From the IMG/VR virus record IMGVR_UViG_3300022854_000015, positions 1 through 20,432 of that record: a stretch of 20,432 nt of DNA, one strand, 5' to 3'. The stretch comes from a virus. The position numbers were made by a program, and so were the translations under genes. Of this stretch, positions 11,660-18,599 are shown piece after piece. The notes under the pieces are model-generated. The model had not been told where the DNA came from. It did not search any database and was given only the letters and a program-made list of their open reading frames with translations. Positions within the stretch are counted from its first letter, which is position 1. Every line of letters starts with the position of its first letter.

Positions 11660-13825
11660 TTAGTTCGCCGCATCTACATTATAAATTGCATTGATGAAAC
11701 ACTCAGTTGACGATGGAGTGAAATTAGGTTGGAAATCATAACGAGCATAACCAACAACATTATAACCGTAGTTATGGATATCTCTCTCGGTTAGAATCTC
11801 GACATCTTTACGTTCAGCAACGCTAAACATATCAGTGCGAACAGGCATCATCATTGTCCGGGTGTTACCGGATGCAGAATAGATACCAGTGGCATCAAGA
11901 TCATCTGCGATTTGAGACATTGGAACAATTGGTGAGCCAAAGATTTTGGCAAGTTCACCAATTGCAACAACAGCATTTGGGCCGTACTTATCCATTGTCA
12001 TAACTTCTGGCATTTCGTCAGCACTGAGCAGGCGGAGCAAGTAACCCTGAACAGAGGTGAGCCAAGCAAGTTGATTCGGTTTTAAACCATACTTGCCCAT
12101 CTGTCCCCTGCATTGAGTCATAACATTTGCACTGAAAGTTCCACCATCAATACCTTTTACATCACCAGCAGAGCCAGCATTGATTATTTGGAACCAGAGA
12201 TATCTCAAACCAGAAAAGGCTCTTTGCCTGTGTGTGGCGGCTCGGGTATAACCAGAATCAAGGGCGGCATCAGAAAAGGCGCTTGAACCATTGGAATTGA
12301 TAATCGCATCATTCAATGTTCGGGCGGCACCTCTGGCCATCTTGTCCCGGGCATGAGGCATGATTGCAATAATAGAATCCTCTGTCTCTTCACCGGAAAT
12401 AAAGTAACGACCTTTGAATTTCTTAGCCGTAAATGTCATGTTGCCAGTGAGTATGTCCTGTTCATCTGAATTCACAGATGATGGGACTGTGGTTGTTTCA
12501 GGGCACAAGTCCCAATAGGTGTCAGCCCCCTCTTGTGGAACAGTCAAAGTTTTGTTGACCATCGGGACAAACGGAGCAAACAAAGCCGCAACATTAGCCT
12601 CTGCTCTTACGATTTCTAACAGCTTGCCAGACCAACCCGCCGGAACCCATTCAGTACCTTGGCCCGATGCAGAAGTTGCCATCGATTTAGCAAAGTCATT
12701 GAATTCATTCCAGATTGGCAGGCTCTTCATCCTGATATCTTTTGGCTGTCTGTGGTAGTCACCGCCAACGGATTCTGACTGTCCACTTTTGTAACGATCA
12801 AGCCAAACCAAAGCATCTTGCTTTTCCTGCAATGTGATAAGGTTATCGGCCTGACTTGCGCCAAGGCTCCCCTTCAATTCACCGGGGGTATGCTGTAGCA
12901 AAGACTTGATCCGGTCGGGACTAAACGACAGGCCAGGAACAGCCACAGTTTTGTTTTTCTTGACCGCTTTGACTTCATCAGAAAGATCAGTCATCTTTTT
13001 AACAAAGTCGGCTGTGATGTTATCCATCAGGGTTTTTGTGTCGGCCTCTGTCATTGTCTTATCGGTCAACTGTTTCATTTGTGATTGGAACTGTGCCGCA
13101 TCGACAAACTTTGTCCCAAGCTCCGCAACAGTCACCTCTGTTTGTTTTTTCATTGCATCAGCAATTTGGCTGTCTACAACTTCTTTGGTAACTTCCATAT
13201 CCTTAACCTTTCGTTTGCTCTTTTGAGCTGAAAAATATTTCAATGTCAAATTATGTTCTTTTGCGTGGTTCAGCAGATCAGCGTTTTTAATCTGCTCAAC
13301 TGTTTCGATAGTTGCGCCAGAGTGTCCGGGCGATGGCACTAGGGATGTTTCTATCAATTCCTGTTTGTGGAAATGATATCCGCCATCCTCAATTAGTGAA
13401 TATTCGAGAGCATTAAATCCAACAGAATATGACCTATAAACACCAGCCCGAATGAGCAGGGCGGCATCTTCACCTTGCTTTGTTCCATAGATTACATTTC
13501 TGCCATAAAGCCCCTCTTTACGTATTTCGATATCTGTCCAAATACCAAGTAACATGGCACCCCAGCTATGATGGAACATGAACACAGGATATTTGAGAAA
13601 GTCGTCCAAAACCCAACCAGCAGGATCAATGATATCATCCATTCTGTCCATGCTACCCTTAGACATCCAGCCTCGAGTTGACAGGATTGGCTTGATAGAT
13701 TTATCAGCCCAGCCCGGAGTGATGGAAACAAATTTTTCCTGAATGATATCCATATCGGCTTTGACAGGGGTGCCTATATCTTCAATCCCGCCGATTACGT
13801 GCCTTGTGTTGAGTTTTTGAATCAT
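11660..13825 (-). CDS. Prohead protease fused to major capsid protein
   Basis: A 721-residue protein that joins two head functions. Residues about 25-190 are an HK97 gp4-like prohead protease: FMFHHSWG (candidate catalytic His85/His86), YRSYSVGF (candidate Ser134, in the usual S-V-G-F setting) and ETSLVPSPGHSGA, typical of this family. Residues about 210-295 are a Lys/Glu/Asp-rich coiled coil like the scaffolding delta domain of HK97 gp5. From about residue 300 onward it is an HK97-fold major capsid protein, with AGWSGKLLEIVRAEANVAALF, KKFKGRYFISGEETEDS, an ARDKMARGAARTLNDAI helix, and a C-terminal IHNYGYNVVGYARYDF strand. An internal ATG at 13198 (residue 210) has good ribosome-binding sequence, so free capsid protein may also be made. 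It starts one base after the previous stop. Confidence 0.85.
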   Translation of the reverse strand: MIQKLNTRHVIGGIEDIGTPVKADMDIIQEKFVSITPGWADKSIKPILSTRGWMSKGSMDRMDDIIDPAGWVLDDFLKYPVFMFHHSWGAMLLGIWTDIEIRKEGLYGRNVIYGTKQGEDAALLIRAGVYRSYSVGFNALEYSLIEDGGYHFHKQELIETSLVPSPGHSGATIETVEQIKNADLLNHAKEHNLTLKYFSAQKSKRKVKDMEVTKEVVDSQIADAMKKQTEVTVAELGTKFVDAAQFQSQMKQLTDKTMTEADTKTLMDNITADFVKKMTDLSDEVKAVKKNKTVAVPGLSFSPDRIKSLLQHTPGELKGSLGASQADNLITLQEKQDALVWLDRYKSGQSESVGGDYHRQPKDIRMKSLPIWNEFNDFAKSMATSASGQGTEWVPAGWSGKLLEIVRAEANVAALFAPFVPMVNKTLTVPQEGADTYWDLCPETTTVPSSVNSDEQDILTGNMTFTAKKFKGRYFISGEETEDSIIAIMPHARDKMARGAARTLNDAIINSNGSSAFSDAALDSGYTRAATHRQRAFSGLRYLWFQIINAGSAGDVKGIDGGTFSANVMTQCRGQMGKYGLKPNQLAWLTSVQGYLLRLLSADEMPEVMTMDKYGPNAVVAIGELAKIFGSPIVPMSQIADDLDATGIYSASGNTRTMMMPVRTDMFSVAERKDVEILTERDIHNYGYNVVGYARYDFQPNFTPSSTECFINAIYNVDAAN
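13196..13215 (-). promoter_or_regulatory. Internal ribosome-binding site and in-frame start for capsid part
   Basis: On the minus strand GAAAGGTTAAGGAT stands directly before an in-frame ATG (13198, Met210 of the fusion). AAAGG sits eight bases upstream of the ATG. The product, 512 residues, would begin with the delta-like coiled coil (MEVTKEVVDSQIADAMKK) and lack the protease. This is the exact domain boundary, right after a basic linker (QKSKRKVKD). Use as a start is inferred. Confidence 0.5.
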
Positions 13826-13826
13826 C

Positions 13827-14384
13827 TTACTTGGCGTACATTTTAAGTTTAATTTTCAGCGGCAACAGGCTGTCAATGATATTTGTATCTTCAACCGTTG
13901 TTATAAGCCGGACATAGGTGTAATCCCATAAGACCGAATCAGTTAAATTAAAGGCCACATAATCAGAATTTGCGATAGCATTATGTTTAGGTATGGCAGT
14001 AATCTTGTTAGAATAAAGCAATTTGCTTGGTGTCCCGCCAGCCGCCGCAGTTAAGATTTGAACCCAGACAGTATCTTGAGTTGAGTCAATTACACCAGTG
14101 GCCCCCGGAATACTATCATAAGAAACAACATAATATCCATGTACTGTACTATACCGATCAACAGCATCAAACTTGAACAACAGACTTGATGAATTGTTAT
14201 AGGTTGTCAATGAATCAGGGCCAGATGCAGTTGACGAATCAGGCATTTCAAATTTCCACCTGAAAGTATTTTCCATCTTGGCAGGCGTGGGCCTGTCTGC
14301 TACGGCCTGATCAGGGGTTAGCATAACACTCATAAACACAAGGATTATAACTGTTATTGTTCCGAGTAAAATTAGTCTTTTCAT
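13827..14384 (-). CDS. Secreted beta-rich protein in the head gene block, unknown function
   Basis: A 185-residue protein with ATG 14384 placed eight bases after a strong AAGGAG. Residues 1-29 form a typical signal peptide (MKRLILLGTITVIILVFMSV..., likely cut after AVA). The mature part of about 156 residues has predicted beta strands and many Ser, Thr and Asp (SSSLLFKFDAVDRY; HGYYVVSYDSI; DTVWVQILTAAAGG; DYVAFNLTDSVLWDYTYVRL). It looks like a small beta-sandwich. It lies between portal and protease-capsid, where other phages place head decoration or scaffold genes, yet the signal peptide predicts export. Options are a moron that changes the cell surface, an exported decoration protein, or a retained N-terminal membrane anchor. 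I do not recognise the family. It stops one base before the next start. Confidence 0.75.
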   Translation of the reverse strand: MKRLILLGTITVIILVFMSVMLTPDQAVADRPTPAKMENTFRWKFEMPDSSTASGPDSLTTYNNSSSLLFKFDAVDRYSTVHGYYVVSYDSIPGATGVIDSTQDTVWVQILTAAAGGTPSKLLYSNKITAIPKHNAIANSDYVAFNLTDSVLWDYTYVRLITTVEDTNIIDSLLPLKIKLKMYAK

Positions 14385-14417: not shown

Positions 14418-16508
14418 TTATTCAATTACTACTGGTATCATGGTGCATCGACAGTTGATTATATTTTCAGGACTGCCATTCGGGTCTGCGGGGTAGTCTA
14501 ACATATCACCGCCAACCATAAATTTTTCTTTTGGCTGAACTCTTTGGCCGTTGGCCTCTGCGTGTTCTGGCCGGGTCTCACTGTCGAAAGTTGCCAGCCA
14601 TTCTTTACCAAGTCCGCCCTGTGAATAAGCCTCTGAGGCACCGCCATTAACAAAGCCATTCATTTCTGTTCTGGCAATTCGCATTGCTCTTGGAGTCTCA
14701 AGTTTTTTGTCAGACCAACCGGAATACAATTCCTTTAACTGGCTCGAGACAACAGGCACACTATCACCATTCTTGACAGACTCAATCAAGAGGTATTGAA
14801 CTTGCTGTTGCGAGTATTTGTTTATATCTGTAATCTTTTGAGCAAAGTTCAGAGACATCATTTGAACACCCGGATCATTCGGGTTGAAATCCATCGCCAG
14901 GTTGAAATCAGATACAGCGGCATTGCCGCCAGCCTCAACAGACTGCTTAATTGATATGCCAACATCACTGATAAGCAATTTGTTTTCAGCGTCCATATTA
15001 AACAATCTACCTGGTAGATTATCGTTTTCATCAAAGTCAGCTTTGACTTGCAAGGCCAAAGTAGACATGAACTGGCCCTTGCCTGTGATATCATTCAGGT
15101 TCTTAATCAGGCGGTTGACCTGGCCATTGAAATATGAGGTGATGATCTTGGAAAACTTCTTTTCCTCTTTTTTCAACCGCCCCTCATGGCGTTCACGTTG
15201 TGTTTCCTCACCGGCCTTTGTCAGCTTATAAGTAACCGGATCATACAATCGTTCACGGCTTTTTTTATCTTCATCTGCTGGATTGAATTGGATAGCGGCG
15301 GGCGATGTAAAGAATTCATTACCGCCTTCATCATCATCGACAGGCTCAAGCCCTAACTCAACTCTGGTTTCATTTAGTTTCCGAGCTTTACTTTTCCACT
15401 GATCAAGAATCCGCTTTGATTTCTCGTTAGCATCCTCTTGTAATCCAGTAACTTGTGACCTGTCAAACTTAACTCTGAATTTATCGCCGAATGTCGGCCT
15501 GACAAATTGCAGATTGACTGCATTTTCATATTTGCGCCTGTATGGCTCAACTGCCCCATGCTGGTAAACTTCATCTTGTTTGTTCGCATTGGCATAACTG
15601 GCACCATCAAGAACACCAATCTTGATAGGCGGAACTTTATAGGCGGCCAGTGTTTTCCTCATGACTCGCAGATCAATTTCCTCTGGGATCAGATCCTTGA
15701 GAGAATGGCTCAGCCTTGATAGTGTTGCGCCCTTTTCAAGAACAACATTCTGGAACTGGTTGGCTCCGGTATAAGCTACCCTCACTTGCTTTTTGATTTT
15801 CTTGATATCGTCTTTATTCAGTGCTTGGGCAGTTGAAAATACTGTCCCTGTCATAGCATTATTTTTAAAGTAGTTATTGATATAATTATCAAGGTTGATA
15901 TCAGTCATTATCGTTTTCTTGATAACTTCACTTGGCGGCATACCGTAAAAATCGCCAATAGGATTAGCTATCCTGAAATGAATAACCTCTGCTGTGTCAA
16001 GCTGGTTTGTTATCCCCCGATTGGTGAACACATATTGCGTGACTCTACCCATTGCATCAGTTATAACCTTAACCCAATCAGGCTTGACATAATAGAATTC
16101 ACGATCATCAGTATCATACATCAGGTAAGAATTACCCGCCGCAAGCAAACTGATTATTTCTCTCTCAACTAATTCATCCCATGTTTCATTTGGGTTCGGA
16201 TTGTTGATAAGCTCAAATAGTTCACCGTCACTTTGGGTTTCCCATTGCTCTTGGCCACCAATAATAGTTTTTTTCTGAACCAGCATCGGGGTACTCGAGA
16301 CATCAGTAGCTATGGCTTGAATTGCGGCATAAGCATAAACATTAACCAGGTAGACTTTTAAATGCGCCTCAGTGTCACTGTCCCAAGATTGTTCGCTTTC
16401 TCCACCACTTGAATTGATAACAGTGAGGGCACCAGCCGGGTTGACCTTTTCGATTATTGACTGAGCACGCCTCAACCGCCAATCTATATATTTATCTAAT
16501 AGGTTCAT
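14418..16508 (-). CDS. Portal protein fused to MuF-like minor head domain
   Basis: A 696-residue protein starting at ATG 16508, which overlaps the terminase stop (TGATG). Residues about 45-400 form an HK97/lambda-type portal: YLVNVYAYAAIQAIATDVSS, WDELVEREIISLLAAGNSYL, AEVIHFRIANPIGDFYGMPP, and the PPIKIGVLDGASYANANKQ block. Acidic linkers and a coiled region follow. Residues about 610-696 are a MuF-like domain: RIARTEMNGFVNGGASEAY, KEWLATFDSETRPEHAEANG, and the final INCRCTMIPVV (the conserved N-C-R-C ending). The portal forms the dodecameric ring through which DNA passes. MuF-like proteins are minor head proteins, sometimes ejected with DNA. A fusion gives one MuF copy per portal subunit; separate genes are more usual. 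Confidence 0.88.
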   Translation of the reverse strand: MNLLDKYIDWRLRRAQSIIEKVNPAGALTVINSSGGESEQSWDSDTEAHLKVYLVNVYAYAAIQAIATDVSSTPMLVQKKTIIGGQEQWETQSDGELFELINNPNPNETWDELVEREIISLLAAGNSYLMYDTDDREFYYVKPDWVKVITDAMGRVTQYVFTNRGITNQLDTAEVIHFRIANPIGDFYGMPPSEVIKKTIMTDINLDNYINNYFKNNAMTGTVFSTAQALNKDDIKKIKKQVRVAYTGANQFQNVVLEKGATLSRLSHSLKDLIPEEIDLRVMRKTLAAYKVPPIKIGVLDGASYANANKQDEVYQHGAVEPYRRKYENAVNLQFVRPTFGDKFRVKFDRSQVTGLQEDANEKSKRILDQWKSKARKLNETRVELGLEPVDDDEGGNEFFTSPAAIQFNPADEDKKSRERLYDPVTYKLTKAGEETQRERHEGRLKKEEKKFSKIITSYFNGQVNRLIKNLNDITGKGQFMSTLALQVKADFDENDNLPGRLFNMDAENKLLISDVGISIKQSVEAGGNAAVSDFNLAMDFNPNDPGVQMMSLNFAQKITDINKYSQQQVQYLLIESVKNGDSVPVVSSQLKELYSGWSDKKLETPRAMRIARTEMNGFVNGGASEAYSQGGLGKEWLATFDSETRPEHAEANGQRVQPKEKFMVGGDMLDYPADPNGSPENIINCRCTMIPVVIE

Positions 16509-18202
16509 CAAATCACCGTAATCAATCCGCCGCCCTGGCAGTTCTCAGAGGCAAGCCTTGCATAATTATCTGTATGCTGATGATGATCTTTTCCTTTTGT
16601 CCAAATGAATTTAATTGTGCCATTGGGGGCTGTCAATTCTACTCGAGTTGACTCACACATCATCTTGACAAAATCACCATCATCAACTGTTTTATAATCT
16701 CTCGGGAGCAATACTGAGCCATCAGCATAGGACTGCATCGACGTATCAAGTGAGGCTGTCCTTTTAGTTCTGATTGTTTGCGTAACATAATCTATTTTAA
16801 ACTCTTCTGCATCTGTATCTGACAGGTTGTAATAACAGACAAACCAGCCGGGGTGAGCTTGAACAAACTCCAATGCTTTATGGTGTTCCGGTTCGGCATC
16901 AATAACCCCGCCATTGACTCCAAACCTTTTGCAGACAGTATGCAACTCATTCCAATTTGGGACAGCACCAATGAATAATTTCTTTCTCTTGCCCGATACA
17001 ATCTTTTCAATATGCAGATGCAACTTGCCGCCGACATCAACCCCGGCATATGTATTTCTGGCACTCACTGGCATTATGTAATCAGCAACACAGCCCTTTA
17101 AAAGATCATCACTGAACTTGGCACCTGTCCCGGTGTATGTCTGGCCAAGAATGTTATTATAGAATCTCTGTGTTAAAGTCGGATTGCCTTGGGCTTTCTC
17201 AAAGGTCTCGAATGTCTCATTGACTATTTGCCGAACGTGGTTAGGATCATCATTACCGGGGAAACCAAACAGCCTGCCAATCTGATAGCCGCTGATGTCA
17301 ATATCCGGGTGTTCAGCTACCCATTCACCAGGTGCTAATCTATTTCTGGGCTTGGAACAATAACGACAGACCGGGAAAGAATCCCGGCCATCGTTAGAGG
17401 AACCAATCTTGCCCAAGAGTAAGAATTTGTTATTGTCTGTTTCTCTAACAAAGTGAGTAAACCAATCAAAGTTGTCCCACTTGCCGCAATGATCACATTT
17501 GGTAAACCATTGCTTTTTGTCTGTACTCTCATATTCTAAAGCGATGCCATAACCTGAAACAGTTGGGTTGCCGATCTTGCGCCACATTACCCGGGTGGCC
17601 CCGAGTGTTCTGTCCTCACCATAGGCAATGCCAACCTGATCACATTTATCATATTCATCATATATCATACAGCCAGCATTGAATTCATAGAACTGTGTAT
17701 GACTACCGCCCGAACCCTCAAAAGACCAATCGGCATCATAGATTGATTTCAGATCTTTGGAGTCAACCGATTTTCTTTTAGTCATTATATTCTTGCGGTA
17801 CTCTTCAACCCTGCCAATAATGCTGTCAAGCCTGGTTGATATAAATCTGTTTTTGATTTTCCTGTCGGGCAATACGTACATCCCGGAAATTCCATGTTGA
17901 GCTAAGCAGAATACATCGCACAAAGCCCACTCTGATACACCTGTCTTGGATGATTTAACAATGACTATCTTATCGGAGTTGTCAACATATAGCTGAACAG
18001 CCCAGGGGCGGTTGTCAAAGCGCATATGCTCACCCTCGAGGGGTTTGTGGATATATTCAGCAAATGCCGCCCTCGGTAAGTCTACATATAGCTGTGCTGC
18101 CGCTTGACGTATTTCAGGATCATCTATCGATAGGATCGAGCCTGGAATTTTTATCTGCGGTTGAGTAGAAGTTTGAGAGATTACCGAATTTTCCATTGCC
18201 AT
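16508..18202 (-). CDS. Terminase large subunit, GpA family
   Basis: About 564 residues when started at ATG 18202; ATG 18196 is equally likely and neither has strong ribosome-binding sequence. A longer frame exists upstream but overlaps the small subunit. Numbered from 18202: an AFAEYIHKPLEGEHMRF adaptor region, Walker A-like KSSKTGVSE at about 83-91, Walker B MIYDEYD at about 179-185, two Cys pairs C236/C239 and C279/C282 that look like a zinc ribbon, as in GpA-type terminases, and a nuclease part with YAGVDVGG (Asp387) and GVIDAEPEHH (Asp433). The protein should cut concatemeric DNA and drive it into the prohead through the portal. It overlaps the small subunit by about 83 bases. Confidence 0.88.
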   Translation of the reverse strand: MAMENSVISQTSTQPQIKIPGSILSIDDPEIRQAAAQLYVDLPRAAFAEYIHKPLEGEHMRFDNRPWAVQLYVDNSDKIVIVKSSKTGVSEWALCDVFCLAQHGISGMYVLPDRKIKNRFISTRLDSIIGRVEEYRKNIMTKRKSVDSKDLKSIYDADWSFEGSGGSHTQFYEFNAGCMIYDEYDKCDQVGIAYGEDRTLGATRVMWRKIGNPTVSGYGIALEYESTDKKQWFTKCDHCGKWDNFDWFTHFVRETDNNKFLLLGKIGSSNDGRDSFPVCRYCSKPRNRLAPGEWVAEHPDIDISGYQIGRLFGFPGNDDPNHVRQIVNETFETFEKAQGNPTLTQRFYNNILGQTYTGTGAKFSDDLLKGCVADYIMPVSARNTYAGVDVGGKLHLHIEKIVSGKRKKLFIGAVPNWNELHTVCKRFGVNGGVIDAEPEHHKALEFVQAHPGWFVCYYNLSDTDAEEFKIDYVTQTIRTKRTASLDTSMQSYADGSVLLPRDYKTVDDGDFVKMMCESTRVELTAPNGTIKFIWTKGKDHHQHTDNYARLASENCQGGGLITVI

Positions 18203-18599
18203 TGTTTGAGCTTGTGTCAAGGTTGATAGTGAGAGAATTACCACCAGCAACACCAGCCACACTCCGCATAAGTTCTTTAAACTCTTCATAATCTTTTGCC
18301 AGAAGTCCTGTACCCTGTAGGAATTTAATGGTAACATCAATATCTTTATTGGCCAAATGATAGGCTAATGATTCAATAGCCAAAGGAACTAACCCGAGCA
18401 ATCTTGGCCTGAACTTATCAACATCAAAACTCTTTTTGAGGAACTTATTGAGCCGTTTTCTATGGGTTGTTACTGTGTTTCGGTGTATGCCTAATTTCTT
18501 TGCTGTAACCAGTGCAGTCACGCCACAAACTTGATCAGCGAAAACAACCGCCTGTTCAGTGGTTAATTCCATTTTGGCTGGTTTTTTATCTTCATTCAT
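18120..18599 (-). CDS. Terminase small subunit (HTH DNA-binding)
   Basis: A 159-residue protein. ATG 18599 is nine bases after AGGA; an in-frame TTG at 18617 lacks this. Residues about 25-55 form a helix-turn-helix (ALVTAKKLGIHRNTVTTHRKRL), like small terminase subunits that bind the packaging start site. A helical middle (RLLGLVPLAIESLAYHLANKDIDVTIKFL) would serve oligomer formation, and the C-terminus is disordered, with SSNNGNGKFGN. It is the first gene after the terminator and candidate promoter, and directly before the large subunit, as in most tailed phages. The specific recognition sequence is not identifiable here. Confidence 0.78.
   Translation of the reverse strand: MNEDKKPAKMELTTEQAVVFADQVCGVTALVTAKKLGIHRNTVTTHRKRLNKFLKKSFDVDKFRPRLLGLVPLAIESLAYHLANKDIDVTIKFLQGTGLLAKDYEEFKELMRSVAGVAGGNSLTINLDTSSNNGNGKFGNLSNFYSTADKNSRLDPIDR

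Follow-up and report, generated by a model that had tools for sequence, protein, structure and literature searches.

A predicted internal capsid start at the domain boundary of a fused prohead protease-capsid gene

Protease-capsid fusions and nested protease/scaffold genes are both already known. In phage lambda, the prohead protease gene C carries an internal in-frame start from which the abundant assembly partner Nu3 is made, Nu3 being a separate scaffold, whereas at the locus described here the nested product would be the major capsid protein itself. In herpesviruses, the UL26/UL26.5 pair combines a protease N-terminal to an assembly protein with a shorter in-frame, 3'-coterminal product without the protease (PMC4498786). 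This nested protease gene layout is the one proposed here, but the herpesvirus nested product is a scaffold with its own transcript, and ours would be a capsid protein that includes its own scaffold domain, made from a translational start. The likeness to such nested protease/assembly-protein genes is functional and not a matter of common descent, and a putative internal start with a ribosome site is present at our locus. In HK97 the scaffold is the N-terminal domain of the capsid protein (PMC10275583), and the abstract of a phage report names a protease-capsid fusion (PMC12760985).

The same two domains in one frame are found in NF045541, phrog_617, phrog_4523 and PAJU2 ORF003, the last annotated as 'prohead protease fused capsid protein'; the difference is that one product is annotated in those HK97-type protease/major capsid fusion records that were examined. 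In Novosibvirus (Proteus phages PM135 and M4H10_20) the capsid is of T5 type, its start lies at the matching place, and the gene order (portal, small or decoration protein, protease, capsid, head completion protein) is like that of the locus studied here, but protease and capsid are separate genes. In the literature searched, mostly without subscription papers, no report of an internal capsid start in a protease-capsid fusion was found.

The window, that is, the whole stretch analysed, is a complete virus record of 20,432 bases, in which the minus strand carries in order a terminase, a portal with a MuF domain, a 185-aa gene, the fusion, a 72-aa gene and a head-tail connector. A sequence-only reading had placed protease and capsid in one shared frame of 721 codons, and 11660..13825 (minus strand) is indeed a single frame, open throughout, that combines an S78 prohead protease with a T5/HK97-type capsid protein. 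The features of this region are the following:

13827..14384, minus strand: 185-aa gene between portal and fusion, with a strong ribosome site
11660..13825, minus strand: protease-delta-capsid fusion ORF, 721 aa (open frame and domain models)
13823..13825, minus strand: full-length start ATG, without a ribosome site
13292..13699, minus strand: S78-type prohead protease domain, about residues 43-178 (family models, AlphaFold model)
13199..13291, minus strand: linker, residues 179-209 (low model confidence; variable among relatives)
13207..13212, minus strand: GAAAGG, predicted internal ribosome-binding site, 8-nt spacer to the ATG
13199..13204, minus strand: AAGGAT, directly adjoining the internal ATG
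13196..13198, minus strand: putative internal ATG start, residue 210, product of 512 aa (P0002)
12746..13198, minus strand: predicted delta-like helical scaffold domain, about residues 210-360 (model, low confidence)
11663..12703, minus strand: capsid part (predicted HK97 fold), about residues 375-721 (capsid model and profile matches)

By family match, the protease part is assigned to the HK97-type (S78) prohead proteases: residues 82-179 match PF04586 with 24.8 bits (cut-off 21) and TIGR01543 with an E-value of 6e-9 and 36.1 bits, the latter under the curated cut-off of 59. H86 and S134, which we take to be the likely catalytic residues of the S78 protease, are invariant across 28 aligned fusions. 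The capsid part is assigned by sequence match to the T5/HK97 major capsid proteins, residues 247-515 matching the HK97 major capsid model TIGR01554 with 43.5 bits (cut-off 27.5), and a profile of 16 fusions matches the solved T5-type capsid precursor 8zvi_A with an E-value of 3e-70 over residues 10-449 of 458; a further solved capsid, 5tjt, is T5 kin. In that profile residue 10 of 8zvi_A corresponds to residue 229 in the window protein, so that a complete capsid precursor would begin at about the internal ATG. The match to the phrog_617 major head protein profile (E 1e-23) is confined to residues 52-272, and the window protein misses the cut-off of NF045541, the prohead protease/major capsid fusion family (27.4 vs 525 bits). 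The AlphaFold model of the fusion has a mean pLDDT of 52.1, with most of the capsid part below 60, and its delta-like helices (213-255, 260-290 and 323-353) are predicted with low confidence. Because the protease is modelled reasonably to about residue 178, residues 178-235 have low confidence and the first long helix begins at 213, the ATG falls at the protease/delta boundary, as had been read from the bare sequence, three residues ahead of the first predicted delta-type helix.

Of the two motifs that the sequence-only reading had put before this ATG, GAAAGG is usable with its 8-nt spacer, and AAGGAT was rejected as a ribosome site because it touches the ATG and leaves zero spacer. The full-length start lies one base past the stop of the upstream 185-aa gene. 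For two assumed forms of the host's 16S tail, the E. coli and an extended anti-Shine-Dalgarno (anti-SD) sequence, the calculated pairing is -3.4 kcal/mol (E. coli anti-SD) or -7.6 kcal/mol (extended anti-SD) at the internal start and +0.5 or +0.7 kcal/mol, respectively, at the full-length start. RNA folding over 70 nt gives -10.5 kcal/mol around the internal ATG and -3.8 kcal/mol at the full-length start; the internal region is the more folded, which speaks against the internal start.

The fusion, the internal ATG with its predicted ribosome site and the conservation of both can be read directly from the sequences, and we consider it highly probable that the gene encodes a nested pair, the 721-aa fusion and a 512-aa delta-capsid protein from the internal start. 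Ribosomes starting at 13825 would make the protease-delta-capsid fusion and those starting at 13198 a delta-capsid protein equivalent to an ordinary T5/HK97-type capsid precursor. As the delta and capsid parts are common to both products, these should co-assemble, the fusion would bring the protease covalently into the prohead on some of the subunits, and the protease, once inside, would remove both itself and the delta domains by cleavage. What we infer is that two proteins arise from the gene, with the shorter one predominating, that they assemble together and that cleavage follows. If true, this would explain how few proteases and many capsid proteins are obtained from one fused gene. The principle of nested genes, known for the scaffold of herpesviruses, would then apply to a capsid protein as such, and in a broad group of tailed phages the annotated start of the major capsid protein would be incorrect.

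The evidence that carries this reading comes from relatives. Used as a direct query, the fusion protein found no relative in viral contigs or genome contigs; no relative was found with the portal as query, nor with a three-sequence profile in genome contigs. A terminase search yielded L008 (50% identity), L007 (37%) and L006 (23%), three near relatives that also carry the fusion, and a profile search in viral contigs yielded further loci, of which the best 80 of 301 were taken. In the resulting 93 loci, 58 ORFs were fused; removing those more than 70% identical left 39, and setting aside L003, in which the capsid gene is separate, left 38; L001, L013 and L014 are copies and had been left out before counting. 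Among 28 fusions scanned, the protease was matched by 28 and TIGR01554 by 24; the rest of the 38 were called fused by length, with at least 300 residues after the protease. In the three near relatives the boundary ATG is preceded by AGGAG at 7 nt (L008), AAAGGA at 9 nt (L007) and AAAGGAG at 6 nt (L006).

For all 38, the boundary start was defined before scoring as the first ATG 15-60 codons past the protease match. Such an ATG is present in 38/38 non-redundant fused ORFs, drawn from loci that include the best 80 of 301, and since 308 of 459 control stretches of 46 codons elsewhere in the same ORFs also contain one, the ATG alone is unremarkable. The ribosome site before it is not: pairing of -4 kcal/mol or stronger with the extended anti-SD is found at 35/38 first boundary ATGs vs 92/575 other in-frame ATGs, and with the E. 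coli tail at 26/38 vs 80/575. Median pairing is -6.1 at the boundary vs -2.1 kcal/mol at the other ATGs (n=575) with the extended anti-SD (p 1.5e-18), and -4.85 vs -1.90 with the E. coli tail (p 6e-12), p-values that count related sequences as independent. An exact match to the ribosome site of at least 5 nt, 3-14 nt upstream, occurs at 27 of the 38 boundary ATGs vs 18 of the 575 others, and weak pairing at the first boundary ATG is seen in three ORFs (L036, L054 and L066). In a small negative control, the portal-MuF fusion of four genomes, ATGs are scattered, some with moderate pairing, and no boundary start is shared. The sequence-only reading had held that loss of the internal ribosome-binding sequence in relatives would speak against it; both the boundary ATG and its site are retained, and this comparison strongly supports the internal ATG as the true start of a second, capsid-only product.

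One alternative is a polyprotein. Here only the full-length protein would be made, every subunit would carry a protease that releases itself by a cut in the linker, and the ATG and its purines would be a by-product of the many lysines and arginines in the linker. In favour of this, no stop interrupts the frame, many annotated fusions have a strong full-length ribosome site, charged linkers are purine-rich, and after synonymous recoding of the seven upstream codons the mean pairing energy is still -3.8. The observed mean, however, is -6.5 (extended anti-SD; Fisher 3e-11, Wilcoxon 2e-9), with mid-p<0.05 in 11/38 single ORFs and mid-p>0.5 in 4/38; an earlier version, based on the E. coli anti-SD and on whichever ATG lay nearest, the wrong one in the window, gave a weak result (Fisher p 0.008; p<0.05 in 3/38), and the later one used the fixed first-ATG rule. 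Along the linker, pairing is strongest exactly at the ATG (mean -6.5), and from a distance of two codons onwards it lies between -0.5 and -2.8. Of the 38 ORFs, 34 have a core of 4 nt or more, and these cores occur in all three codon phases (19/9/6, with one spacing register common to 16/34), which indicates that nucleotides and not one peptide are kept; the site is translated as K-G, K-E, K-D or E-G in different members while the AAGGA-like nucleotides stay constant, and the linker peptide diverges among relatives while ATG and ribosome site remain. The boundary Met was dropped as a plain conserved column, being aligned in 12/15, 4/6, 5/8 and 4/6 rows of local alignments; it stands at a distance varying by a few residues ahead of the conserved helix, and its position drifts like that of a start codon, unlike a structural residue, with the pairing signal shifting along with it. 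A polyprotein accounts neither for the peak at the ATG and the surplus over recoded sequences nor for the three codon phases and the drifting Met, and we therefore regard it as improbable.

The split relatives support the nested start and also bear on a further alternative, namely that a stop codon was lost between two genes and that the former capsid start, with its ribosome site, survives as a functionless leftover. Most split loci have a capsid gene that starts just past or overlapping the protease stop and has a ribosome site, with exceptions such as L003 and a few others, in which the two genes lie further apart. The capsid of the split locus L079 starts with MNIAQQI, 12 nt past the protease stop, and its fused counterpart reads MNIAEQI; in the Proteus Novosibvirus phages the separate protease and capsid genes are in the same frame, 12 nt apart, with the protease stop codon inside a TAAGGA site. 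Judged by sequence, the capsid start of split relatives thus lies at the place matching the fused internal ATG, and this shared start, preceded by a ribosome site of like kind, is what a relic would leave, as is the alternation of fused and split states on a quickly built tree (45 protease domains, 153 columns, most forks open), with eight changes, at least three of them forced by starred branches. The same tree holds two well-supported all-fused clades (15/15 and 6/6) across long branches, so that the state has changed several times and yet has also lasted long. These clades (15 and 6 rows) retain the site, and synonymous choice favours it, where a relic should have decayed; we consider a functionless remnant very improbable.

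Retention extends to annotated genomes. In 8/8 annotated fusions outside the 38 (phages SP-016, JLK-2012, PAJU2 and PPompW_EH2246; plasmids of Enterobacter, Arsenophonus, Ewingella and Citrobacter; two pairs among them near relatives), an internal ATG has a pairing of -5.4 to -10.8 kcal/mol, the strongest being AGGAGG in PAJU2 (-10.8 kcal/mol), and in the regions read none of the eight records has a second start annotated. Among 5426 complete E. coli genomes, a related fused gene, matched at the DNA level along 80% or more of its length, is present in 1243.

The nested pair leaves the amounts of its two products to be considered. The expectation that they are unequal, with capsid in excess, agrees with the start strengths in the window, but 7/9 annotated fusions (six enterobacterial and RHph_X2_26) show the opposite, the full-length start having the stronger ribosome site with the E. 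coli anti-SD, and capsid excess is therefore not predicted there. The full-length site is the weaker one in PAJU2, Arsenophonus, the window and L008; in L006 both starts are level, and in L007 the ranking depends on the anti-SD chosen. The internal start might thus be real and set a fixed ratio, or the short product might be the minor one, as the seven fusions would suggest. The window, L008 and PAJU2 show the reverse, and the prohead volume would make a protease on every subunit unlikely; we judge this version rather doubtful. Ribosome-site strength alone gives no product ratio. The 185-aa gene possibly couples translation to the full-length start, and a coupled, low-level long form together with direct initiation of the short form would fit the start strengths in the window.

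More tentatively, and with the odds somewhat against it, an internal boundary start could, as a general rule, accompany every fusion of a phage head protease to a building block of the head, the protease then being a covalently attached minority component of the shell. Fusions of portal and protease in marine phages would be a second case, in which the nested product is a free protease: an in-frame start with a ribosome site lies 10-17 residues before the protease in 11/11 loci of about four lineages, with pairing of -6.4 to -11.6 kcal/mol and with ATG in ten and GTG in one. These loci, L021, L023, L024, L026-L032 and L034, each encode portal and S78 protease as a single ORF, with the Pfam matches shown for L021 and L024.

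Some minor observations concern the neighbouring genes. The 185-aa protein (13827-14384), for which no Pfam, NCBIfam or PHROG match was found in the window and no Pfam match in its relatives, has an N-terminus resembling a signal peptide, and similar genes occur in L008 and L007, with none in L006. The terminase ORF (16508-18340) has a hydrophobic N-terminal stretch, which lies out of frame over part of the small gene upstream; L007 and L008 have similar stretches, and the start of this ORF is probably wrongly placed. L006 and L007 are nearly identical in the terminase region and very different in portals and capsid fusions, the terminase and the head genes thus meeting at a mosaic boundary.
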